Source: Zoogloea sp. (GTDB taxonomy: Bacteria > Pseudomonadota > Gammaproteobacteria > Burkholderiales > Rhodocyclaceae). Taken from it: a stretch of 64,000 bases of DNA. The translations under genes and the position numbers were made by a program. Location of the stretch: NCBI GenBank assembly GCA_016703645.1, contig JADJBR010000007.1:1634501-1698500 (forward strand), read 5' to 3'. The first letter of the stretch is position 1; the number at the start of each line of letters is the position of its first letter. The notes under the pieces were generated by a model that worked only from the letters and a program-made list of their open reading frames with translations, was not told the origin of the DNA and did no database searches. Positions 4,214 through 15,220 of this stretch are shown piece after piece.

Positions 4214-4310
4214 ACAGCACCTGTCAATATGACTTGACCAATCCCGCCACGATAGCCGGCACGAAAACATAACCCAATAAAAACATCCACTTGTGCCATG
4301 CAGGAGGTCA

Positions 4311-4325
4311 GGCACGCTACCTGCT
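4311..4325 (+). promoter_or_regulatory. sigma-54 (-24/-12) promoter
   Basis: GGCACG-CTAC-CTGCT matches the RpoN consensus (TGGCACG-N4-TTGCW), with the required GG (4311-4312) and GC (4323-4324) exactly ten bases apart. Transcription would start near 4336, just upstream of the AAGGAGG at 4337-4343 and the ATG at 4352. The operon encodes its own sigma-54-dependent activator with a GAFTGA loop, which fits. Confidence 0.7.
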
Positions 4326-4351
4326 GAATAGATGGCAAGGAGGATAGATTG

Positions 4352-4642
4352 ATGAGCCCAACCATCAGGGTATTGAGTTTTGTTCTGCTGTCCCAGCTCT
4401 CGTCCGCAGTCCCGGCTGCCGAGTTCATTGCCGGACTCAAGCCCGATCGGCGTCCCGCGGAGCCTCCCCGGACGATGACGGTCGTGATCGACCAGGCCCT
4501 GAAGGAGCAGCGTCTGAAGGGCATCTCCCAACCCTGGCCCGGCAATCTGGAAGCCATCGCCGCCCAGGGCAACTGGTACTCCCCCCTGTTTCAACCCGGT
4601 CTGCCCGGGCCATACGACCTACGTGGTCTGCATGCCCGATAG
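4352..4642 (+). CDS. small secreted protein of unknown function
   Basis: A 96-residue protein. Residues 1-23 form a signal peptide ending at about SAVPAA. The mature part (about 73 residues) contains a short helix-like region (VVIDQALKEQRLKG) and a Trp/Gly/Pro-rich end (PWPGNLEAIAAQGNWYSPLF). It has no cysteine or CXXCH motif. A strong AAGGAGG lies 8 bases before the ATG at 4352; a TTG three bases earlier is less likely. It is the first gene after the sigma-54 promoter. I do not recognise the family. Its place suggests a periplasmic accessory role with the Met-rich protein or the reductase. Confidence 0.65.
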   Translation: MSPTIRVLSFVLLSQLSSAVPAAEFIAGLKPDRRPAEPPRTMTVVIDQALKEQRLKGISQPWPGNLEAIAAQGNWYSPLFQPGLPGPYDLRGLHAR

Positions 4643-4756
4643 CCGGAGAACCTGTCGTGACGACCTCCGGTCGCCGCGATGCTCCCGGATGCCCCCACCC
4701 CGTGAGGCCTCCGGATTCAACCCGCATCTCAATTCTGTCAACGAAGGAGAAACCCC

Positions 4757-5335
4757 ATGAAGTCTTTCGGCAAACTCGTTAGCTGTTCCGCCCTCGCCAT
4801 CGCCCTCTGCGCAGCGCTGCCCGTCTCGGCCAAGGACGATCAGAAGGGTATGTCCGGCATGTCCGGTATGCAGGGTCAGAAAGGCATGTCCGGCATGTCG
4901 GGCATGGAAGGCCAGAAAGGCATGAGCGGCATGTCCGGCATGGAAGGTCAGAAGGGCATGAGCGGCATGTCGGGCATGCAAGGCCAGAAGGGCATGAGCG
5001 GCATGTCCGGTATGGAAGGCCAGAAGGGCATGAGCGGCATGTCTGGCATGGAAGGCCAGAAAGGCATGAGCGGCATGTCCGGCATGGAAGGCCAGAAGGG
5101 CATGAGCGGCATGTCCGGCATGGAGGGCCAGAAGGGCATGAGCGGCATGTCCGGCATGCAAGGCCAGAAGGGCATGAGCGGCATGTCCGGCATGCAAGGC
5201 CAGAAGGGCATGAGCGGCATGTCTGGTATGTCCGGGAACAAGGCCAAGAAAGCCAAGAAGGCCAAGCAGCAAGGAATGTCAGGCATGTCCGGGATGTCGG
5301 GCATGTCCGGCATGTCCGGCATGGAAGGCAAGTAA
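4757..5335 (+). CDS. methionine-rich repeat protein, secreted
   Basis: A 192-residue protein with a signal peptide (residues 1-25, ending LPVSA) and then ten tandem 12-residue repeats of the form GMSGMSGM(E/Q)GQK, residues 31-150. After this come a partial repeat, a Lys/Ala linker (NKAKKAKKAKQQ) and five more GMS units. The mature part has no cysteine or aromatic residue and about one Met in four residues, spaced as MxxM. Such spacing is known in Cu(I)-binding proteins, and Met-rich periplasmic peptides (MrpX of Azospira suillum) scavenge hypochlorite. Either role is possible. A GAAGGAG ribosome site precedes the ATG. A hairpin follows at 5347-5366, so this gene may be expressed more strongly than the reductase genes. 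Confidence 0.85.
   Translation: MKSFGKLVSCSALAIALCAALPVSAKDDQKGMSGMSGMQGQKGMSGMSGMEGQKGMSGMSGMEGQKGMSGMSGMQGQKGMSGMSGMEGQKGMSGMSGMEGQKGMSGMSGMEGQKGMSGMSGMEGQKGMSGMSGMQGQKGMSGMSGMQGQKGMSGMSGMSGNKAKKAKKAKQQGMSGMSGMSGMSGMSGMEGK
4847..5206 (+). repeat. ten tandem 36-bp coding repeats
   Basis: Ten in-frame 36-bp units encode the dodecapeptide repeats. Units differ at synonymous positions (GGT/GGC, TCC/TCG/TCT, AGC for the first Ser) and at one GAA/CAA or CAG codon, so the protein repeat is conserved more strictly than the DNA. This suggests selection on the peptide rather than very recent duplication alone. Confidence 0.9.
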
Positions 5336-5346
5336 CCCTTCCTTTC

Positions 5347-5366
5347 ACGGCCCCGCAAGGGGCCGT
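5347..5366 (+). terminator. hairpin after the Met-rich gene, possible attenuator
   Basis: ACGGCCCC-GCAA-GGGGCCGT forms a perfect 8-bp stem with a four-base loop, 12 bases after the stop codon, followed only by a short TTCC. The short T-run suggests a leaky terminator or mRNA-stabilising hairpin rather than a complete stop, since the cytochrome gene begins 49 bases further on without a clear promoter. Confidence 0.55.
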
Positions 5367-5414
5367 TTCCTGCCGCGGTCAGCGCGTCTGCCGGGCATGT
5401 ACTGAGAGGTTGTC

Positions 5415-6245
5415 ATGGTGGTCAGTCTAAGAACAATACGCTTCTCCGCCGCACTGCTTCTGTTGCTCGTATCCGGAGGACGGCTCGTCGCCGCCGGCTC
5501 CGCCGACAACACGCCGCAGACAGCGCACGATTACCAACGCGCGCGCTATAGCGCGCTGCATTTCAAACCCGCCATCGCATCCGCAAGCAATGCGGACTGC
5601 CTTGCCTGCCACGCGGAAGTACTCAAACCCTCCGTCCGGGAGCGCTCGCCGGCGGGCGTCAAGGCCGCCGATGCCAAGGCGTGGTATCAGCAGGTATCGA
5701 CTTACCAGGGTGCTCAGGACACCTTTCATCGCCGTCACCTTGAAAGCGATTTCGCGCGGACGACCATGTCGCTCCAGTGCACCACCTGCCACGAAGGACA
5801 CGATCCCCGGGACGAGCATCCGCTGAGTTCAGCGAGCGCCCAACGGGAGGGCGGCTTCCGCCTGCGCAAGAGCGTCACTCCCGAAACCACCTGCCTCAAG
5901 TGTCACGGCCAGATGAACACCGCCGTGATGGGTCTGCCCGGCCCCTGGCACACCAGCCGCGAGATGTTCCAGAACGACTGTCTCACCTGCCACGCGGCGA
6001 TCCGCACCAACCGGCACCAGGTGAGTTATCTGAAGGCCGACGCCATCGAGACCGCCGGCAAGGGCAACGGCGATGTGTGCTACGGCTGCCATGGTGGCAG
6101 GGCCTGGTATCGCACGACCTACCCCTATCCACGCCACGCCTGGCCCGGGATGGCCGACGAGACACCGGACTGGGCCAAAGGACGGCCAACGGAATCGGAA
6201 GCGCGCTTCCTCACCGGGGACAGGGCAAAAGGACAATCAAAATGA
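5415..6245 (+). CDS. periplasmic pentaheme c-type cytochrome
   Basis: A 276-residue protein with a signal peptide (hydrophobic core at about residues 10-20) and exactly five CXXCH haem motifs: CLACH (62-66), CTTCH (122-126), CLKCH (160-164), CLTCH (189-193) and CYGCH (222-226). Scattered His residues could supply second axial ligands. No membrane anchor is visible beyond the signal. It ends in an ATGA overlap with the molybdoenzyme gene, so translation is coupled and a direct electron-donor role to that enzyme is likely. The operon has no DmsC-like quinol-oxidising anchor, so this cytochrome may replace it. Start ATG at 5415 follows GAGAGG. Confidence 0.88.
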   Translation: MVVSLRTIRFSAALLLLLVSGGRLVAAGSADNTPQTAHDYQRARYSALHFKPAIASASNADCLACHAEVLKPSVRERSPAGVKAADAKAWYQQVSTYQGAQDTFHRRHLESDFARTTMSLQCTTCHEGHDPRDEHPLSSASAQREGGFRLRKSVTPETTCLKCHGQMNTAVMGLPGPWHTSREMFQNDCLTCHAAIRTNRHQVSYLKADAIETAGKGNGDVCYGCHGGRAWYRTTYPYPRHAWPGMADETPDWAKGRPTESEARFLTGDRAKGQSK

Positions 6246-8815
6246 AGATCGAATTCAAGGGCGCCAACCCGGATATCCCTAACCAGACGGGCCGGCGGGA
6301 TTTCCTGAAAGTCATGGGTGTCGGCGCCGGTCTGGCCGGGCTCGGCGGCTTGACCGTGGCACCGCGGGAAGCATCGGCCTTTGCCTACGAGCCCTATCCC
6401 ACCGACGACCAGCTCACCACCGTAGTCACCTCCTGCGCCCACAACTGCGGCTCACGCCACATGCTGGTGGCACACAAAAAGGGCGACGTGATCGTGCGCC
6501 TGTCCACCGATGACGGTCGCTACCAGAAGGGGGGCGCTTACGGAAAGGACACCGTCGACGAGCCCCAGCTTCGTGCCTGCCTGCGCGGCCGCTCCTACCG
6601 CTCGCGGCTGTATTCGCCCGAGCGTCTGCTGTACCCGATGATGCGAGTCGGCAAGCGCGGGGAGGGCAAGTTCAAGCGCGTATCGTGGGACGAGGCGCTC
6701 GACTTCCTTGCGCACAAGATGGTCGAGCTGAAAAAGACCTACGGCCCCACCGCGATACTCGACCAGAGCTACGCCGGTGCATCGTATGGCGTCTTGCACA
6801 AGTCGGACCAGATCGAGGGCCTGCTCGGGCGCTTTCTGGGCATGTTCGGCTGCCGCACCAATAGCTGGTCGGTGCCCAGTTATCAGGGCACCACCTTCTC
6901 CAGCCGCATCACCTTCGGCACCATCGAGGATGGCAACGAGGACGATGCCTATGCCCACTCGAAGCTGATCATCATGTGGGGCTGGAATCCGGCCTACACC
7001 TTCCACGGCGGCAACACGTTCTACTACATGCGGATGGCCAAGCAGCGCGGCTGCAAGTTCGTGCTGGTGGACCCGCAATACACCGATTCGGCATCTGCCT
7101 ACGATGCCTGGTGGATCCCCATCCGCCCCAATACCGACGCCGCCATGCTGGCCGGGATGGCCCATGTCATCTTCAGCGAAAACCTCCACGACCAGAAGTT
7201 CATCGATCGCTTCGTGCTCGGCATGGACAAGGGAACCCTGCCCCCGGAGCACCAGGATGCCGAGAGCTTCAAGGATTACATCCTCGGTACCCGGGATGGC
7301 ATCCCCAAGTCGGCCGAATGGGCCGAGGCCATCTGCGGCGTGAAGGCCGACGACATCCGCAAGCTGGCACGCATGTACGCGACCACCAAACCCGCTGCGC
7401 TGAAAGCCTCCTGGGCACCCGGTCGGGCCGCCTACGGCGAGCAGTACAACCGCATGGCCGCCGCGGTGCAGGCCATGACCGGCAACATCGGCAAGCTGGG
7501 CGGCTGTGCCGAGGGCGTGGGCAAGGCCTGGCACTCCGAATCCATCGCCTACCCCTACGACGAGTTCGCCAACGTGTGGTTCGGATCGATCAAGTCGGAT
7601 CGCTGGGCCCATTGCGTGCTCAACTACCCCAACGTACGCCGGGAGGAAGTCGGCCTGTGGCCGCGGGAAGACGAACTGGACGGTCAGATCCCCAATATCC
7701 GGGCCATCTTCTGGCAGGGATCGGACTGGTTCAACCAACTCACCAACATCAACAAGGAAATCCAGGCCATCGAGAAACTGGACCTGGTGGTGTGCATGGA
7801 CTCGACCATCACGCCATCAGGCATCTGGGCCGACGTGCTGCTCCCCGTGGCAACCCACTTCGAGCGGCACGATGTGGCCTTGCCCTGGTACAAGGGCCAC
7901 TACTACATCCATCGCCCGAAGGTGATCCAGCCCCTTGGCGAGTCCCGCTCCGATTTCCAGATCTTTACCGAGCTCGCCTACCGTCTCGAGGCCATCGACC
8001 CGACGGTGAAGGACTTCGGCAAGCGCTACAACCCCCGCGCCACCCGCGACTACTTCCACAACGCCGACCCGGTGGACGAGGCCTATCTTTCGGCCTGGTG
8101 GAACGGCAAGGTGCGCCCGCACCAGGGCGTCACCATGAGCTGGGATGAGTTCAAGAAACACGGGGTCTACAAGTTCGTCTTCAAACGCCCCCTGGTGGCC
8201 TTCCGCGATCAGATCGTCAAGGGCGAACCCTTCGAAACCAACTCCGGCAAGATCGAGATCTTTTCGCCCTATCTCGCCGAGATCGACGACTGGACCAAGA
8301 CCCAGTACGGCTATGCCATCCCGCCCATTCCCAAGTGGATCGAGCCCTTCGAGTCCCTCAACAGCCCCCTGACCAAGGACTACCCTTTCCACCTCATCAG
8401 CCCCCACCCGCGCTGGCGTACCCACTCGATCTTCCACAACATCCCGTGGCTGCGCGAAACCTACGACCAGGAACTGACCCTCAACGCCTCCGATGCCCGC
8501 CGGCTCGGCATCCAGACCGGCGACACGGTGGAAGTCTGGAATGCGCGCGGCAAGTGCGTGGTTCCGGCCTATGTCACCGAACGCTGCCTGCCCGGCGTGG
8601 CGGTGCTCTTCGAGGGTGCCTGGATGGACCTGGACGAGAACGGCGTGGACCGCGCGGGCAACCCTGACTTCCTGACCCTCGACGAACCGAGTCCGGCCGG
8701 TGCTTTCGCCTACAACACCGCGCTGGTCAACGTGAAGAAGTCCGAACTTGCCCATCGTCCCGGCTGGGACGAGCTCGCCACTGCGCGCTCCAGCGTGTTC
8801 CGGCGCGACTACTGA
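6242..8815 (+). CDS. DmsA-type molybdopterin oxidoreductase, Tat-exported catalytic subunit
   Basis: An 857-residue DMSO-reductase superfamily enzyme. Residues 16-23 (TGRRDFLK) are a Tat signal motif, so it folds in the cytoplasm and is exported to the periplasm. The N-terminal Fe-S motif reads C65-x3-C69-x3-H73 with C113; the third ligand of the usual Cys set is His. LRACLRGRS, the YP-M-RVGKRGEGKF stretch and the VDPQYTD and WIPIRP motifs closely resemble E. coli DmsA. By hand alignment Ser213 (VPSYQ) falls at the DmsA molybdenum-ligating serine. The C-terminal molybdopterin-binding domain (HLISPHPRWRTHS) is complete. Likely substrates are S- or N-oxides such as DMSO or methionine sulfoxide. 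The true substrate is not shown by sequence. Confidence 0.87.
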   Translation: MKIEFKGANPDIPNQTGRRDFLKVMGVGAGLAGLGGLTVAPREASAFAYEPYPTDDQLTTVVTSCAHNCGSRHMLVAHKKGDVIVRLSTDDGRYQKGGAYGKDTVDEPQLRACLRGRSYRSRLYSPERLLYPMMRVGKRGEGKFKRVSWDEALDFLAHKMVELKKTYGPTAILDQSYAGASYGVLHKSDQIEGLLGRFLGMFGCRTNSWSVPSYQGTTFSSRITFGTIEDGNEDDAYAHSKLIIMWGWNPAYTFHGGNTFYYMRMAKQRGCKFVLVDPQYTDSASAYDAWWIPIRPNTDAAMLAGMAHVIFSENLHDQKFIDRFVLGMDKGTLPPEHQDAESFKDYILGTRDGIPKSAEWAEAICGVKADDIRKLARMYATTKPAALKASWAPGRAAYGEQYNRMAAAVQAMTGNIGKLGGCAEGVGKAWHSESIAYPYDEFANVWFGSIKSDRWAHCVLNYPNVRREEVGLWPREDELDGQIPNIRAIFWQGSDWFNQLTNINKEIQAIEKLDLVVCMDSTITPSGIWADVLLPVATHFERHDVALPWYKGHYYIHRPKVIQPLGESRSDFQIFTELAYRLEAIDPTVKDFGKRYNPRATRDYFHNADPVDEAYLSAWWNGKVRPHQGVTMSWDEFKKHGVYKFVFKRPLVAFRDQIVKGEPFETNSGKIEIFSPYLAEIDDWTKTQYGYAIPPIPKWIEPFESLNSPLTKDYPFHLISPHPRWRTHSIFHNIPWLRETYDQELTLNASDARRLGIQTGDTVEVWNARGKCVVPAYVTERCLPGVAVLFEGAWMDLDENGVDRAGNPDFLTLDEPSPAGAFAYNTALVNVKKSELAHRPGWDELATARSSVFRRDY

Positions 8816-8850
8816 ACGCATCGCCAGCGACGCAGAAGGAGTACATAGCT

Positions 8851-9540
8851 ATGGCTGACAAGAAGACCATCCGCAAGCTGGGGGCCGAGGCCCGGGCCCA
8901 GGTGCCCGACGCCCAGGCCCGCCGCGACGCGGCGACCTACGAGCCGGTCAAGCCGGCAAAGCAGCTCGGCTTCATCCACAACAACATGGACTGCATCGGT
9001 TGCCGCGCCTGCGAGATCGCGTGCAAGGACAAGAATGGCCTTGCCCCCGGGCCGCGCTTCCGTCGCGTGATGTACGTGGAGGGCGGGCAATTTCCCGACG
9101 TCTTTGCCTATAAGGTGAACATGTCGTGCAACCACTGTGCCGAACCGGCCTGCCTGCCCACCTGCCCCACCGGCGCCATCTGGAAACGTGCCGACAACGG
9201 CATCGTGGATATCGATTCCACCCTCTGCATCGGCTGCCGGCGCTGCGAGGCCGCATGCCCCTATGGCGCCCCCCAGTTCGACCCGGTCGACAATCTGGTC
9301 AAGAAATGCAACATGTGTGTTGACGAAATCGACGCCGGTCGCAAACCCTACTGTGTGATGGCCTGCATGATGCGCGTGCTCGACATCGGTCCCATCGATC
9401 AGTTGCGGGCGGGCTTGATGAACACCAAGGCAATGGTCAAGGGCGACAAGCCGGTGCGCCAGGTGCAGCACATGGCCAGCCCTGAACTGACCAACCCCTC
9501 CATCGTCTTCATTGCCCATCCGAAGGGACGCGTCGAATGA
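8851..9540 (+). CDS. DmsB-like four-cluster [4Fe-4S] electron-transfer subunit
   Basis: A 229-residue protein with four ferredoxin-type cysteine groups: CIGCRACEIAC, CNHCAEPACLPTC, CIGCRRCEAACP, and CNMC with later Cys in a CVMAC context. This is the arrangement of DmsB, NrfC and PsrB subunits that pass electrons into a molybdoenzyme. It has no signal peptide and would be exported bound to the Tat-targeted catalytic subunit. An AGAAGGA site precedes the ATG at 8851. The unusual N-terminal 35 residues are charged and Ala-rich. Its partner for electron input is probably the pentaheme cytochrome, which is inference. Confidence 0.9.
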   Translation: MADKKTIRKLGAEARAQVPDAQARRDAATYEPVKPAKQLGFIHNNMDCIGCRACEIACKDKNGLAPGPRFRRVMYVEGGQFPDVFAYKVNMSCNHCAEPACLPTCPTGAIWKRADNGIVDIDSTLCIGCRRCEAACPYGAPQFDPVDNLVKKCNMCVDEIDAGRKPYCVMACMMRVLDIGPIDQLRAGLMNTKAMVKGDKPVRQVQHMASPELTNPSIVFIAHPKGRVE

Positions 9541-10184
9541 GCACGTCCAAGCTCGAACCGGCACCACAAGCCACCGCCCTGCCCCTGGAAGCGGCATCCG
9601 AAGACCTGGCTGCACTCGCCTGGCTGCATGAGTCCGAACGGGACGTGAGCACCCTCGGCCGCCTGCACGCCGGGGGCTTCCCCGACGGCTTGACCCTGGC
9701 CCGGCCGGACATGCCGGCCGTCACCGACATGGAGCAGGCGCTGGCGGTGATCCGCCAGGTGGGCGCGGAGGAACAGGCCGCACTCCAGGATGACCTCGAC
9801 GCCGACTTCGCCGGCATCTACCTCACCCACGCCCTGCGCGCCTCGCCCTGCGAATCCGTGTGGCTTGATGAGGAGAACCTGATGATGCAGGGCCCCAGTT
9901 TCGCGGTGCGCGACTGCTACCGCAGGCACGGACTGTCGGTCGCAAACTGGCGGCACATTGCCGACGACCACCTCGCCAATGAACTGGCCTTCGTTGCCTA
10001 TCTGCTGGCCAAAGGCCATGGCGGCGAGGCCCGTCGCTTCATCGACGAACACCTCATGCAATGGTTGCCGCGCTTCGCCGGCCGGGTGACCGAGCGCGCC
10101 TCGACCCGCTTCTACGCGGCCCTGGCAGGGCTGACGCTGCAAGTCGTCGAGAGTCTGCAGCAGCGGCTGCCGGCCAGCGGCTGA
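9537..10184 (+). CDS. TorD/DmsD-family molybdoenzyme maturation chaperone
   Basis: A 215-residue all-helical, acidic cytoplasmic protein. The central region (WRHIADDHLANELAFVAYLL) matches the TorD/DmsD fold, in which a conserved D-H-x-x-x-E segment helps bind the Tat leader of the molybdoenzyme. Such chaperones hold the apoenzyme until cofactor insertion and prevent early export. It starts in an ATGA overlap with the Fe-S subunit gene. The N-terminal 30 residues are poorly conserved in type. Its likely client is the enzyme encoded three genes upstream in the same operon. Confidence 0.82.
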   Translation: MSTSKLEPAPQATALPLEAASEDLAALAWLHESERDVSTLGRLHAGGFPDGLTLARPDMPAVTDMEQALAVIRQVGAEEQAALQDDLDADFAGIYLTHALRASPCESVWLDEENLMMQGPSFAVRDCYRRHGLSVANWRHIADDHLANELAFVAYLLAKGHGGEARRFIDEHLMQWLPRFAGRVTERASTRFYAALAGLTLQVVESLQQRLPASG

Positions 10185-10221
10185 AGCCCGTGTCACCGCG
10201 CCTGTGGATGTCCCTCTCAGC

Positions 10222-10338
10222 GGGTGTGAATAAATCTGCTGCACGATCCGATTTCGCCCCTGCGATGCTCACCGTACCCTTGTACGGCTGCGCTTCTCGG
10301 GGCGAACTCGAACCGCTCGCTACGATTTCTTCACACCC
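10222..10338. repeat. long imperfect palindromic element, copy A
   Basis: A 117-bp dyad between the TorD-like and polyferredoxin genes. The outermost arms GGGTGTGAA and TTCACACCC and the central CCGTAC-CCTT-GTACGG pair perfectly, with an imperfectly paired region between them. Bases 10260-10329 recur with few changes at 44024-44094. There is no T-run, so it is not a standard terminator. In RNA it would fold into one long hairpin. Confidence 0.75.
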
Positions 10339-10374
10339 TCTCCGCACTGTTCAGGCAGCCGTTCGGGTGATCCG

Positions 10375-11325
10375 ATGCTGATCGTGGATGACGAACGCTG
10401 CGTGCATCGACTGACAACGGTGGCCACGTGTCATGCCTGCGTGGATAGCTGCCCGACCGGCGCCTGGTCGCTCAAGGCCGACGGGCTTGAGTTCGAGCCG
10501 GGCCAGTGTGATGGCTGCGGGCTATGCGTCCCCGCCTGTCCAACCGGCGCACTGGCGCTTGCTCAGCCACCCGAGCTGCCCCTCCACCGTGGCACCCTGG
10601 ATCTGGCCTGTGAGCGCACGACGGGGCCAGGCATCCGCTTACCCTGTGCCCATGCCCTCTCCGAGGCACGGCTGCTCGGTCTGCAACGGAATGGCCTGCG
10701 GCGCCTGATTGTGCGCACAGGCGATTGCAGTGCATGCCCACGGGGCACCGCCGTCCGGCTCCCGGAACGTGTTGACGCGGTGAATCGCGTGCTGCAGCGT
10801 GCCGGGGCCGCAACGATTTCCCTCATGGCGGCGGATGAGGCTTTGGCAACAGAGCCACCACGTCGGGGCTTCCTCGCCGGGCTGCTGGCCCGCCCTGCCG
10901 CGCTGCTGAGCACGACACCACCACCGGAACCCGACACCCGCCGTGCCGCCTTGCAGGGTCTTGCCGCGCGGGGTGTCCGCAGCGGGCTCTGGGCCGTGGA
11001 GCTCGACGCCCAACGCTGCGACGGATGCGCCCTCTGCGCCCGCCTGTGCCCCGAGGGCGCCATCGACTGGCTCGAGGGTGATAGGGAAGCCGGGCTGTGC
11101 CTGCACATGGAGCGCTGTGTGGGTTGTGGCATCTGCGTGGACGCCTGTGCCCAGCAGGCGCTGAAGCCCGGCAAGGCCGGTTGCGGTGCCCCGGGAGCCG
11201 TCTTTCGACAGGCCAACTGCAGCGCCTGCGGCGCGCGTTTCCGTCATTTGGGCACCACTGCGCCGCGCCACTGCCCGGTATGCCGCACCCGCACACGGCG
11301 TCCGGATCGGCTGGTGGTAGACTGA
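10375..11325 (+). CDS. polyferredoxin-type Fe-S protein with C-terminal zinc-ribbon-like motif
   Basis: A 316-residue cytoplasmic protein. It has four ferredoxin-type groups: one N-terminal (C9, C19, C22, C26), a second at 45-55 (CDGCGLCVPACP), then two near the C-terminus (CDGCALCARLCP and CVGCGICVDAC). A CSACPRG motif lies in the middle, and the last 45 residues have paired CXXC motifs (CSAC and CPVC) like a zinc ribbon. No signal peptide is present, so it acts inside the cell, unlike the exported reductase. It may feed electrons to the system, insert a cluster or sense redox state. I do not recognise a named family. It lies between the chaperone and the sensor kinase. Confidence 0.75.
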   Translation: MLIVDDERCVHRLTTVATCHACVDSCPTGAWSLKADGLEFEPGQCDGCGLCVPACPTGALALAQPPELPLHRGTLDLACERTTGPGIRLPCAHALSEARLLGLQRNGLRRLIVRTGDCSACPRGTAVRLPERVDAVNRVLQRAGAATISLMAADEALATEPPRRGFLAGLLARPAALLSTTPPPEPDTRRAALQGLAARGVRSGLWAVELDAQRCDGCALCARLCPEGAIDWLEGDREAGLCLHMERCVGCGICVDACAQQALKPGKAGCGAPGAVFRQANCSACGARFRHLGTTAPRHCPVCRTRTRRPDRLVVD

Positions 11326-11351
11326 AAACCGCCCCGCCCCCCGTCCTGCGC

Positions 11352-13226
11352 ATGTCTCCGCTTTCCCGTCTGTGGTTTGCCACCTCCCTTGCACGAAGGC
11401 TCATGCTCGTGCTGATGATGGCGTTGCTGTTCGCCTCCGGCCTGCTCGTCGGCGGCATCGTGTGGATCTCGGGCACGGCCATGCAGATGGAGCACGAGGC
11501 CTCCGCCCACCGGCTTGCCGCCCTGTTCGAAACAAGCCTGCATTCGGCCATGTTGCGCCGTGATCTGCCGGGTCTGACCGAAACGCTCATCCACCTGGGG
11601 AGCCTGCCCGGCGTACACTTCGCAGCCCTGCTCAACCCCAGTGGTGAAGTCCGCTTTGCGTCCCGCGAGGGCGACCGGGGCCAACAGCACCCCGAGTGGG
11701 TCCGCGGTCTGTGCCTGAGCGCCGGCTGCACCGCATCGCCGCCACGGCTGGACGCCCTTGAAACAGGCGCGACGGGGCTACTTCGCATCGCCTACCCGAT
11801 CCGCAACCAGGCTCGCTGCGGCGGCTGCCACGGCGCCACGGAAACACACCCGGTCAATGGCGTTCTGGTTCTGGAGTTCACACCTCCCACGGACGAGAGC
11901 CGGGCCGTCATCCAGGCACGTCGCCTGCTCCCCCTGGGCCTGACGGCACTCGCCGTGCTGGCGCTGGCCATCTGGTGGGTCGTCCGGCGCGAAGTGCTGG
12001 CGCCGGTGGATCGACTGGCGGGCGTTGCCGCGGCGGTTGCCGACGGTGATCTGTCAGCCCGCGCCGGCAGCCTGTCGGGTGGCGAGCTCGGCCAGCTCGG
12101 CAAGCAGGTGGACGCCATGACCGGCCGTCTCGGCGCCATGATCGAACAGGCAAGCCAGCAAGGGGTCTTCCTCCAGGGCCTGGTGGACGCTGCCCCCGAC
12201 CCGATGGTTGTCATCGACGAGGACTACCGCATCGTCCTTGCCAATCAGGCCTACGCCACCCTGATCCAGCGCCCCCTGGATGCCGTCCGCGGCCGACCCT
12301 GCCATCGCATCGGCCGCGGGCTCGGCGAGCCCTGCCCGGTGACGCTTGTCACCTGTCCGGTCGCAGAACTGAAGAAACGGCCGGAGCCCCTGCGCACGGT
12401 GATGAGCATGCTGCGTCGCGACGACACGCAAGTCAGCGTCGAGATCCATGCCGCGCCCCTCGTCGGGCCCGATGGCCGCCAGCTGGTGGTGGAGGCCATC
12501 CGCTCCCTTGACGATCAGGTACGCTTCTCCCAGGAGCAGCGTCTCTCCGCGGTCGGCCTGCTGGCCAACGGGGTGGCCCACGAGATCCACAATCCACTCG
12601 CCTCCATCCGCCTTGCCCTCCAGTCGAGCTTGCGTGGACTGCGTGATGGCTCGATGGGGGTTGCCGATGTCACTGAATACCTGGAGCTTGTGGATCAGGA
12701 GATCGACCGCTGCGCCCTGATCACCCAGCGGCTCATGACCCTCAGCCACCCCCCTGGCGGAACCCGGCCGGTGCTCCTGCGCACGGCGGTCGAGGATGTG
12801 GTGGCCTTGCTCGCCGAGGAAGCCCGCTCCGCCCGGGTGAACGTCAACATGACGCTGCAAGCACCGGACGCCCGGGTGCTCAACGACGAGGCCGAGCTGC
12901 GCCAGGTCGTGCTGAACCTTCTGCAGAATGCCTTTCACGCCATGCCCGCCGGCGGTACCCTTGAGATCGGACTGTCACGGGAGGCGGGGTTCTTCCATTT
13001 CTCGGTGAGTGACGAGGGCGTCGGAATTCCCGTCGAGGAGCAAGGCCTGATCTTCATGCCCTTCTTCAGCCGGCGCGCCGATGGCCGCCGTGGGTCCGGT
13101 CTTGGCCTCGCCATCTGCAAGGCCATCCTTGAACGCCATGGGGGTCGTATTGCAGTGGAAAGTCGGCCGGGTCAGGGCAGCACCTTCCATGTCTTCATGC
13201 GCAGCGCCGACGAGGACACCGAATGA
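11352..13226 (+). CDS. haem-binding PAS sensor histidine kinase
   Basis: A 624-residue membrane kinase. TM1 is at about residues 19-38 and TM2 at 194-211, enclosing a periplasmic sensor domain with one CXXCH motif (CGGCH, 156-160), which should carry covalent haem c. HAMP follows, then a PAS domain with a Cys cluster (C317-H318, C328, C335), then HisKA (His410 in VAHEIHNPLAS) and HATPase_c (DEGVGIP, GSGLGLAICK). The frame is open far upstream, overlapping the polyferredoxin gene, but the ATG at 11352 begins directly before TM1. It probably senses a periplasmic oxidant or redox state and phosphorylates the regulator encoded next, with which it overlaps by four bases. Confidence 0.88.
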   Translation: MSPLSRLWFATSLARRLMLVLMMALLFASGLLVGGIVWISGTAMQMEHEASAHRLAALFETSLHSAMLRRDLPGLTETLIHLGSLPGVHFAALLNPSGEVRFASREGDRGQQHPEWVRGLCLSAGCTASPPRLDALETGATGLLRIAYPIRNQARCGGCHGATETHPVNGVLVLEFTPPTDESRAVIQARRLLPLGLTALAVLALAIWWVVRREVLAPVDRLAGVAAAVADGDLSARAGSLSGGELGQLGKQVDAMTGRLGAMIEQASQQGVFLQGLVDAAPDPMVVIDEDYRIVLANQAYATLIQRPLDAVRGRPCHRIGRGLGEPCPVTLVTCPVAELKKRPEPLRTVMSMLRRDDTQVSVEIHAAPLVGPDGRQLVVEAIRSLDDQVRFSQEQRLSAVGLLANGVAHEIHNPLASIRLALQSSLRGLRDGSMGVADVTEYLELVDQEIDRCALITQRLMTLSHPPGGTRPVLLRTAVEDVVALLAEEARSARVNVNMTLQAPDARVLNDEAELRQVVLNLLQNAFHAMPAGGTLEIGLSREAGFFHFSVSDEGVGIPVEEQGLIFMPFFSRRADGRRGSGLGLAICKAILERHGGRIAVESRPGQGSTFHVFMRSADEDTE

Positions 13227-14602
13227 ATGCACCGGTCCAGCACTCGATCCTGGTGATCGAAGACGACAGCGTACTCAACCGCCTGCTGCTCAAGACCCTG
13301 GTCCGCAGCGGCTTCGACATGCACGGTGCCCTCACCTGGGCGGAAGCACGCGCCCGCATTGACGAGATTGCTCCGGACCTCGTGCTGCTCGACATGAACC
13401 TGCCCGACGCGCGGGATTTCACCCCCCTTACCGAGATTGTCCAGACCCGCCCGGTGATCATGCTCACCGCCTACGGCTCAATCAATCAGGCCGTCGAGGC
13501 CATGCGGCTCGGCGCGGTGGATTACCTCGTCAAGCCGGTGAATCTCGAAGAGCTCGAGCTGGTCATCCAGCGGGCACTGGAAGGCACGCGGCTGAGACGA
13601 ACCGGCGATGCCCTGAAGGCCGCAAGGAAGGGGCTGACCGACAACCCCATGGTCGGTGCCAGCCCGGCCATGCGCCAGGTGTGGGATCTCATTGAGGCCG
13701 TCGCCGACGACGAGGTCACCGTGCTGGTGCGCGGTGAAAGCGGCGCCGGCAAGGAACTGGTCGCCCGCGCAATTCATGACGCCGGGCGACGCCGGGATGG
13801 GCATTACGTGGCGGTGGACTGCTGCACCCTGCAGGAAACCCTTTTTGAAACCGAACTCTTCGGCCATGAGCGGGGCGCCTTCACGGGAGCCGACCGCCTC
13901 AAGCCCGGCCTCATTGAAGCGGCTGCCGAGGGCACCCTGTTTCTCGATGAAATCGGTGACATCGGCCCGGCCATCCAGGCCAAGCTGCTGCGCGTGCTCG
14001 AAACCGGACGCTTCCGGCGGGTTGGCGCCACCACGGATCTGCGTGCCAACGTGCGCATCGTTGCCGCCACCAACCGCGACCTGACCCAGATGGTCCGGGA
14101 AGGCCGCTTCCGGGCCGATCTCTACTACCGCCTCACCGCCTTCGAGATCAACGTACCGCCCCTTCGCGATCGTCGCGAGGACATCCCCCGGCTGGTCGCC
14201 CACTTCGCCCGCGCGCGGGCGCGCAATGGCCGCCTGGTGGGCTTCTCGGATGCCGCACTGGCCCGGCTCGTGACCTATGACTGGCCAGGCAACGTGCGCG
14301 AACTGCGCAACGTGGTGGAGCGCGCCCTGATCCTCGCCAGCCACACCGGCCTCGCCGGGCCCGAGCACCTGCCACCCTTGCGTGACCCCGGCTTCGACCC
14401 CCAGACCCCAGTCGCCTGCGGACCGGTGAGTTTTCATGGGGAACCCACCCTCGACGAGATCGAACGCCACTATCTCACCGAACTCCTCGACCGCCACCAG
14501 GGCAACCGCCGCAAGGTGGCCGAAGCGATGGGCGTGTCCGAACGCACGGCCTACCGCATGCTGGAACGCCACGGGCTGAAGAGCCGGGGCGAGGGCGCTT
14601 GA
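13223..14602 (+). CDS. NtrC-family sigma-54-dependent response regulator
   Basis: A 459-residue regulator with three domains: an N-terminal receiver with phosphoacceptor Asp57 (VLLDMNLPD), a central AAA+ domain with Walker A GESGAGKE and the sigma-54-contacting GAFTGA loop, and a C-terminal Fis-type helix-turn-helix (NRRKVAEAMGVSERTAYRML). It overlaps the kinase gene (ATGA). It should activate a -24/-12 promoter, and one lies at 4311-4325 at the head of the same gene group, implying positive autoregulation if transcription reads through. DNA target is inferred, not shown. Confidence 0.93.
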   Translation: MNAPVQHSILVIEDDSVLNRLLLKTLVRSGFDMHGALTWAEARARIDEIAPDLVLLDMNLPDARDFTPLTEIVQTRPVIMLTAYGSINQAVEAMRLGAVDYLVKPVNLEELELVIQRALEGTRLRRTGDALKAARKGLTDNPMVGASPAMRQVWDLIEAVADDEVTVLVRGESGAGKELVARAIHDAGRRRDGHYVAVDCCTLQETLFETELFGHERGAFTGADRLKPGLIEAAAEGTLFLDEIGDIGPAIQAKLLRVLETGRFRRVGATTDLRANVRIVAATNRDLTQMVREGRFRADLYYRLTAFEINVPPLRDRREDIPRLVAHFARARARNGRLVGFSDAALARLVTYDWPGNVRELRNVVERALILASHTGLAGPEHLPPLRDPGFDPQTPVACGPVSFHGEPTLDEIERHYLTELLDRHQGNRRKVAEAMGVSERTAYRMLERHGLKSRGEGA

Positions 14603-14737: not shown

Positions 14738-14814
14738 TGGGGCGACATACCGGGTTCGAACCGGTGACCACTGGAATCACAATCCAGTGCTCTACCAACT
14801 GAGCTAATGCCGCC
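14738..14814 (-). tRNA. tRNA-His (GTG)
   Basis: A 77-nt cloverleaf with anticodon GTG in the loop TTGTGAT. Acceptor GGCGGCAT pairs with ATGTCGCC, placing G-1 opposite C73, the tRNA-His identity pair. The CCA is encoded. Confidence 0.93.
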
Positions 14815-14865
14815 ACTGCGGATCGTCGACATGCATCGCCGACCCAATGAGCAAATTTTCCAGAG

Positions 14866-14939
14866 CCTGCCCGACAGGAATCGAACCTGTAACCTACGGC
14901 TTAGAAGGCCGTTGCTCTATCCGGTTGAGCTACGGGCAG
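14866..14939 (-). tRNA. tRNA-Arg (TCT)
   Basis: A 74-nt cloverleaf. Acceptor CTGCCCG pairs with CGGGCAG; the anticodon loop CTTCTAA gives TCT. The D-loop and T-loop (TTCGATT) are normal. The 3' CCA is not encoded (CTC follows the discriminator). Confidence 0.9.
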
Positions 14940-14966
14940 ATCGCCGCGGGCACCGGGGTCAAGCTT

Positions 14967-15043
14967 TGGTCGGGGTGGAGAGATTCGAACTCCCGACATC
15001 TTGCTCCCAAAGCAAGCGCGCTACCGGACTGCGCTACACCCCG
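14967..15043 (-). tRNA. tRNA-Pro (TGG)
   Basis: A 77-nt cloverleaf with anticodon TGG in the loop TTTGGGA. Acceptor CGGGGTG pairs with CACCCCG, and the discriminator A is followed by an encoded CCA. First of the three tRNAs in transcription order. Confidence 0.93.
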
Positions 15044-15220
15044 AGAGGCGCGAATGATACATATCCCTTCGGCTCCCGTCAAACAGGTTTCAAACAAATC
15101 TATTTCGCCCTCGAAAATGCCGTGGTGAGAACATATTCTTGCATTCTCCGTGTCAAGCCACATGGTCAGGCCGCTTTGAAGCTGCACCAAGTCCGTTTCC
15201 GCAAACGATAATAGGGCTCG

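Follow-up and report, generated by a model that had tools for sequence, protein, structure and literature searches.

Exported methionine-rich (Met-rich) peptides with MXKDX repeats are encoded beside molybdenum enzymes that reduce methionine sulfoxide (MetO) in the MrpX/YedYZ system of Azospira suillum and the BcrXQP system of Brucella, and the available portions of the reports propose that peptide and enzyme act as sink and recycler (PMC4623255, PMC8315932). Within the dimethyl sulfoxide (DMSO) reductase family, MetO reduction has been demonstrated for DorA of Rhodobacter and MtsZ of Haemophilus (PMC7402097, PMC5122715), R. sphaeroides DorA reduces free and protein-bound MetO about equally well (PMC7402097), and E. 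coli DmsABC reduces methionine sulfoxide and is induced by hypochlorous acid (PMC12096835), in each case according to the accessible sections of these papers. Here we describe an operon in a 64,000-nucleotide stretch of a Zoogloea sp. genome (contig JADJBR010000007.1, positions 1,634,501 to 1,698,500; hereafter the window), in which a gene for a Met-rich exported repeat protein (4757–5335) is followed by genes for a pentahaem c-type cytochrome (5415–6245) and a DmsA-like molybdoenzyme (6242–8815), all on the plus strand. Functional linkage of the enzyme and the Met-rich gene is strongly supported by gene content, conservation, genome-level co-occurrence, joint absence with a two-component pair, promoter, hairpin, and active-site residues. 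We consider it probable, at roughly 60%, that the operon constitutes a rechargeable periplasmic methionine sink.

As in MrpX/YedYZ and BcrXQP, a Met-rich exported protein is encoded here beside a molybdenum enzyme, and MrpX/MsrP is the nearest system by function, as far as the available parts of the literature extend (PMC4623255, PMC8315932, PMC8692401). The repeat in the window is of the G-M-S type whereas theirs is MXKDX, the enzyme belongs to PF00384 (DMSO-reductase family) rather than to PF00174 like MsrP, a pentahaem cytochrome and an iron-sulfur (Fe-S) subunit stand in place of MsrQ, and a sigma-54 promoter with a two-component pair replaces the extracytoplasmic function sigma and anti-sigma factors. 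A preliminary description of this DNA, made from the sequence alone, had called the locus distinct from MrpX/YedY, and the two do differ in repeat type, enzyme fold, and regulation. No sigma factor gene was found among the nine neighbouring genes scanned. The MXKDX repeat family TIGR02953 gave no match in the window Met-rich protein at E values up to 0.001 and none in its own genome, although control genomes gave no match either. Membership in the MXKDX/MsrP system was ruled out by this lack of a TIGR02953 match, by the PF00384 enzyme, and by the position of MsrP at another place in the genome.

In order to follow the pairing outside this genome, enzyme relatives were recovered by a scan of GTDB genome contigs, and the best 80 of 321 formed the locus set for all counts out of 80 given below. 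Their record titles name Alpha-, Beta-, and Gammaproteobacteria, and the same module recurs in records of all three. A Met-rich repeat open reading frame (ORF), called with motif cut-offs of our own setting, lies upstream of the enzyme in 60 of the 80 loci; in five of the 20 others (L022, L049, L050, L068, and L080), the upstream DNA extends for no more than 1.2 kb. A class sample of 369 genomes, drawn evenly across the host class, contained 16 enzyme-bearing genomes (match at E up to 1e-150) and 14 genomes with at least ten matches to a DNA pattern for G-M-x-G-M-x-G-M, a cut-off fixed, like that of eight used for relatives, after the counts were known. That level was reached by 13 of the 16 enzyme-bearing genomes vs. 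one of the 353 others (Fisher p = 2.6e-20). The lone enzyme-negative genome above it (G095) encodes a secreted protein of 116 aa with a plain run of GGM, while the enzyme-bearing genomes below it have seven (G091), three (G182), and three (G285) matches. In the genomes inspected, 1–4 background matches frequently came from the GGM tail of one chaperonin-type protein, which we take to be GroEL-like.

The repeat adjoins the enzyme gene in 14 of the 16 enzyme-bearing class-sample genomes, the window genome included. In G236 it ends 1.4 kb upstream of the enzyme, at the contig start; in G190 the enzyme contig is cut off 53 bases upstream of the gene, with the listed repeats located on a different contig; the 6.7-kb enzyme contig of G182 has no Met-rich repeat; and G091 carries a second enzyme copy (L162) without a nearby repeat. 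Among 60 relatives, at least eight repeat matches were found in six of seven enzyme-bearing genomes vs. one of 53 others, and in the genus subset of 23 genomes the same four have both the enzyme and at least eight matches. The enzyme-bearing relative under the cut-off (G034) has five matches and a Met-repeat lipoprotein encoded away from the enzyme. TIGR02166 homologues outside the clade occurred in only two of 185 genomes (G143 and G221), each with at most two repeat matches, a number of genomes too small to carry weight. The locus, class-sample, and relative and genus counts rule out a chance or purely local pairing; co-occurrence beyond this genome, the check that the preliminary description had proposed, thus holds both at the level of loci and across the class sample.

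The evolutionary relationships of the enzymes were examined in a quick maximum-likelihood tree of 101 sequences, in which 95 form one group set on long branches apart from E. coli DmsA and YnfF; two short enzymes were left out, and support is mixed, with stars on 39 of the 98 inner branches and a program warning about the meeting of long outgroup branches. With 73 rows scored as having the Met-rich gene, 15 as lacking it, and 13 not scored, the observed pattern needs at least six changes, and shuffled patterns need 14.1 on average. The gene is present on early branches, and absences cluster mainly in Rhodocyclaceae-type lineages. The enzyme of a locus titled Desulfobulbus falls among betaproteobacterial sequences.

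Loci that lack the Met-rich gene in cis generally lack the regulatory genes as well. Of the 43 loci that have flanks of at least 5 kb in both directions, 32 carry the Met-rich gene, and 26 of these have both a kinase and a regulator; none of the 11 without it does (Fisher p = 2.2e-6); one of the other six Met-rich loci has only a kinase or a regulator, and five have neither. Across all 15 loci without the gene, 14 show no two-component pair in the available DNA, three loci having less than 2 kb downstream. Another exported Met-repeat protein, often a lipoprotein, is encoded elsewhere in nine of the 15 genomes without the cis gene (G427, G428, G432, G433, G434, G435, G436, G438, and G440), a count that stands without an enzyme-negative comparison set. 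Separately, loci L173, L180, and L187, from genomes whose enzyme locus is without the cis gene, were observed to carry Met-repeat tails on lipoproteins and a Met-repeat N-terminus on another protein, presumably amino-acid-binding-type lipoproteins and an ammonium-transporter-like protein. A small Met-repeat lipoprotein gene lies away from the enzyme locus in three genomes (L248 4493–4834, L250 4029–4394, and L251 3–209), with neighbours that resemble one another.

The Met-rich protein of the window has 192 aa, of which 40 are methionine, arranged in (G-M-S)(G-M-S)(G-M-E/Q)(G-Q-K) units. Across 71 such proteins, the repeat region is composed of approximately 26% Met, 37% Gly, and 16% Ser, with 0.9% proline and near-absence of His and Cys (17 and 15 residues in total). 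The median share of Met-Met spacings divisible by three is 97% per protein while the other letters vary, which indicates selection on Met. Glycine occupies each third residue along the main repeat of the window protein, and this accounts for its Pfam Collagen match (88 bits). An AlphaFold2 model is disordered (mean pLDDT, the predicted local distance difference test score, 45.5), although a single-sequence run is a weak test, and the protein is probably unstructured. If the chain had three residues per turn, all Met would lie on one face.

The enzyme carries an RRDFLK motif of the twin-arginine translocation (Tat) type, in keeping with export, and hits to the superfamily domains PF00384 (167.7 bits) and PF01568 (75.4 bits). 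Its TIGR02166 score of 611.5 bits falls below the curated DmsA cut-off of 777.7, and over aligned positions it shares 35.6% identity with E. coli DmsA and 31% with BisC and TorA. The enzyme forms a separate and apparently uncharacterised clade of the DMSO-reductase family. In an alignment of 32 sequences, Ser213 is invariant and aligns with Ser147 of DMSO reductase, which we take to be the Mo ligand, and Tyr177, also invariant, aligns with Tyr114. Where known S-oxide reductases have Trp116, an invariant Gly179 stands here. Retention of the tyrosine favours S-oxides while loss of the tryptophan leaves the pocket uncertain, given that S-oxide reductases carry both Tyr114 and Trp116 and the pure N-oxide reductase TorA is without the tyrosine, as stated in the accessible part of PMC5122715. 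DorA and MtsZ share the S-oxide-type tyrosine but not the Gly, and no Met-rich partner is described for them in the portions of the papers at hand; alignments to R. sphaeroides DMSO reductase and MtsZ start at query residues 121 and 138, respectively, past the Fe-S motif. That N-terminal motif (Cys65/Cys69/His73/Cys113, all invariant in the 32 rows) reads CxxxCxxxH rather than the CxxxCxxxC of DmsA, with His73 (window 6458–6460) in place of the third Cys.

Like E. coli DmsABC, the system combines a catalytic subunit that has an Fe-S motif and a Ser ligand with a DmsB-like partner (8851–9540; TIGR02951 194.7 bits, below the curated cut-off of 214.1) and a TorD/DmsD-like chaperone (9537–10184; PF02613 78 bits, and PRK04976 74 bits, short of the required 132). 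It differs in forming its own clade on a long branch, in the His substitution, in a cytochrome that takes the place of DmsC, and in the added Met-rich protein. No DmsC homologue was found in the operon or the homologous loci, barring a weak minus-strand YnfH match approximately 8 kb downstream in L031, and the pentahaem cytochrome, whose count of five CXXCH motifs is shared by 90 of 93 homologues, is therefore the likely electron donor. The AlphaFold2 model of the enzyme is poor (mean pLDDT 55.8), so that the structure-library ranking, topped by DorA of Rhodobacter and MtsZ of Haemophilus, is weak. A Zoogloea metagenome-assembled genome (L010) encodes an enzyme with 100% identity to the one in the window.

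Upstream of the operon, a sigma-54 (-24/-12) promoter element (AGGCACGCTACCTGC, 4310–4324, plus strand) agrees with nine of 11 positions of the consensus. Elements scoring at least 9/11 occur in 41 of 62 homologous upstream regions (those with enough upstream DNA) vs. 2.1% of mononucleotide shuffles; of the loci lacking the Met-rich gene in cis, eight could be tested, and L057 alone scores at least 9. The last two genes of the operon encode a sensor histidine kinase (11352–13226), with one CGGCH haem-c motif in its N-terminal half, and a sigma-54-dependent response regulator (13223–14602; PF00158, PF00072, and PF02954). All 52 kinases chosen for their resemblance to this sensor half have a CXXCH motif there.

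A GC-rich hairpin with an 8-bp stem follows the Met-rich stop codon (5347–5366; ACGGCCCC-GCAA-GGGGCCGT, then TTCC). Comparable hairpins (GC-rich stem of at least 6 bp, at most 90 bases past the stop) follow 39 of 71 Met-rich genes vs. 6.3% of shuffles, and were counted at other junctions after 16 of 52 small secreted protein genes, 10 of 69 cytochrome, 6 of 70 dmsA, 15 of 70 dmsB, and 5 of 64 torD genes. The window hairpin is not listed among the terminator-like sites of a terminator scan because it has too few T residues. It is possible that it acts as a partial terminator or RNA stabiliser; either would lift the Met-rich protein above the enzyme, which would fit the need of a sink.

In the proposed cycle, the long, abundant, and probably unstructured Met-rich protein would react chemically with oxidants to give methionine sulfoxide, and the DmsA-like enzyme with its Fe-S subunit would reduce these sulfoxides back, so that the polymer could be reused many times. 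Electrons would pass from the quinol pool through the pentahaem cytochrome to the enzyme and Fe-S subunit, the haem-c sensor kinase and sigma-54 regulator would turn the operon on via the -24/-12 promoter, and the hairpin may secure a surplus of Met-rich protein over enzyme. We infer that MetO in the Met-rich protein is the substrate; the identity of the oxidant and haem binding by the sensor kinase are put forward in the same conditional sense. The sink and recycler roles were already suggested in the preliminary description, and the results agree with them in part: co-occurrence and the retained Ser and Tyr speak for them, while the loci with the enzyme alone, the lost Trp116, and the occurrence of MSGM repeats in CopA-type proteins do not.

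Several observations weigh against the methionine sink. Fifteen loci with at least 5.8 kb of upstream DNA represent true absence of the Met-rich gene in cis, from which it follows that the enzyme is useful without that gene. One of them (L057, outside the 43-locus set) nevertheless lies near genes for a kinase and a regulator and has a well-matching sigma-54 element; elsewhere in its genome, a contig ends in a Met-rich gene. The invariant Gly in place of Trp116 and an MsrP encoded elsewhere in the window genome count in the same direction, as do the cut-offs chosen with the counts in view and the mutual non-independence of homologous loci, which applies to all statistics on loci.

A tentative possibility, considerably less probable than not, is that the operon supports oxidant respiration via a protein, in which the oxidised methionine polymer would serve as an encoded electron acceptor, discharged by the molybdenum reductase and coupled through cytochrome c to the quinol pool. 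Peroxide, hypohalite, or a similar oxidant would charge the polymer with sulfoxide, and detoxification would thereby double as a terminal electron-accepting reaction.

We regard it as unlikely that the enzyme instead respires another acceptor, such as DMSO, an oxyanion, or another S- or N-oxide, and that the Met-rich protein merely soaks up reactive by-products, its oxidised Met being either repaired by MsrP or left as it is. The 15 loci that keep the enzyme without the cis gene and the MsrP elsewhere in the genome are compatible with this explanation, as are the promiscuity of enzymes of this family (PMC10100899) and the account of MrpX as protection during (per)chlorate respiration (PMC4623255), both as given in the available parts of these papers. 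Nevertheless, the link between the enzyme and the Met-rich gene is tight for an optional protectant, family scans assign no MsrP, MsrA, or MsrB to the window operon, and no Msr-type gene was recognised, by window-gene matches and by eye, among the clusters present in at least eight of the 80 loci. Chlorite dismutase (PF06778) is found in none of the 16 enzyme-bearing class-sample genomes, although it is rare anyway (1 of 369). (Per)chlorate respiration was rejected as a context on this count, with the same reservation.

The Met-rich protein might also be a Cu(I) chaperone or store, tied to the molybdoenzyme by copper or by redox stress and not as its substrate, since M-x-x-M motifs can bind Cu(I). 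The one enzyme-negative relative above the cut-off (G038) holds a long MSGM run (L247 3535–5343) within a multicopper oxidase, presumably CopA-like, that has copper-type neighbours, and this further observation counts against the methionine sink. CopA-type proteins share exported MSGM repeats with the window protein, but theirs lie inside the oxidase among copper-type genes. No copper gene was recognised by eye among the clusters in at least eight of the 80 loci. His and Cys are near-absent from the repeats, and a partner molybdoenzyme of S-oxide type would be left unexplained, which makes a copper function decidedly doubtful. A collagen-like or polyglycine-type structural surface filament with incidental Met is very improbable, because the Gly at each third residue, the Pfam Collagen hit, and phage tail-fibre-like PHROG matches are set against Met held at approximately 26% in 71 proteins whose other letters vary, almost no proline, no anchor seen in the window protein, NCBIfam collagen-adhesin matches far under their cut-offs, and the disordered (single-sequence, hence weakly tested) model.

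If the methionine sink is correct, the operon would represent a second way to build an oxidant defence that recycles methionine, using parts with no relation to those of MrpX/MsrP, and would provide a testable physiological substrate for an apparently uncharacterised DMSO-reductase clade. Record titles place the module in wastewater, sediment, and symbiotic Proteobacteria. No published description of this pairing was found in open-licence PMC papers, subscription papers and preprints lying outside the search. The module also unites a new small secreted family with a haem-c-motif kinase, whose inducing signal can be sought.

Every gene named in the preliminary description, and their order, was recovered by translation and family scans, all genes of the operon lying on the plus strand, and its -24/-12 promoter does lie ahead of the operon. 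Its operon start needs amending: the Met-rich gene is present, but the operon opens with a distinct gene for a small secreted protein (4352–4642) that had been overlooked. The overlapping starts it reported are found at the cytochrome/dmsA, dmsB/torD, and kinase/regulator junctions, while the 3′ junction of the Met-rich gene and that between torD and the polyferredoxin gene are not tight. The cytoplasmic polyferredoxin (10375–11325) has several Fer4 domains, and its gene is present in only part of the 80 loci.

The small secreted protein of 97 aa has no match in Pfam, NCBIfam, or PHROGs. It recurs in 62 further loci (63 rows with the window), with a conserved tail, QG.WytPf..PGm.gpYD.RgwH, and we refer to it as the PYDxRGWH protein. 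Its order relative to the Met-rich gene is swapped between lineages (before it in 31, after it in 21, and not found in 18 of 70 Met-rich loci), and it persists in eight of the 15 loci without the Met-rich gene. These small secreted proteins are a new family tied to the Met-rich/molybdoenzyme operon.

Clustering of the 1,241 ORFs of the 80 loci gave no further plus-strand family in more than ten loci beyond the operon genes, although the clustering was coarse, with the enzyme itself caught in 70 loci only and no Met-rich cluster formed. The larger minus-strand clusters overlap operon genes and look like antisense ORFs. Downstream of torD, nine loci encode what we take to be a small c-type cytochrome (e.g., L066 7934–8389, a Thiodiazotropha record), and ten loci encode a presumably thioredoxin-like protein with a repeat domain (e.g., L061 15929–17656, also a Thiodiazotropha record).

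The gap of approximately 190 bp between torD and the polyferredoxin gene contains an inverted-repeat element of approximately 123 bp (10219–10341) with imperfect 18-nt inverted ends. Its core occurs once in the window and at one locus of the same genome among the 251 loci fetched, and it is possibly a small mobile element or one resembling repetitive extragenic palindromic sequences. Downstream of the operon, tRNA genes for His, Arg, and Pro lie on the minus strand at 14738–15043, and a plus-strand ORF across them (14807–15211) is probably spurious.

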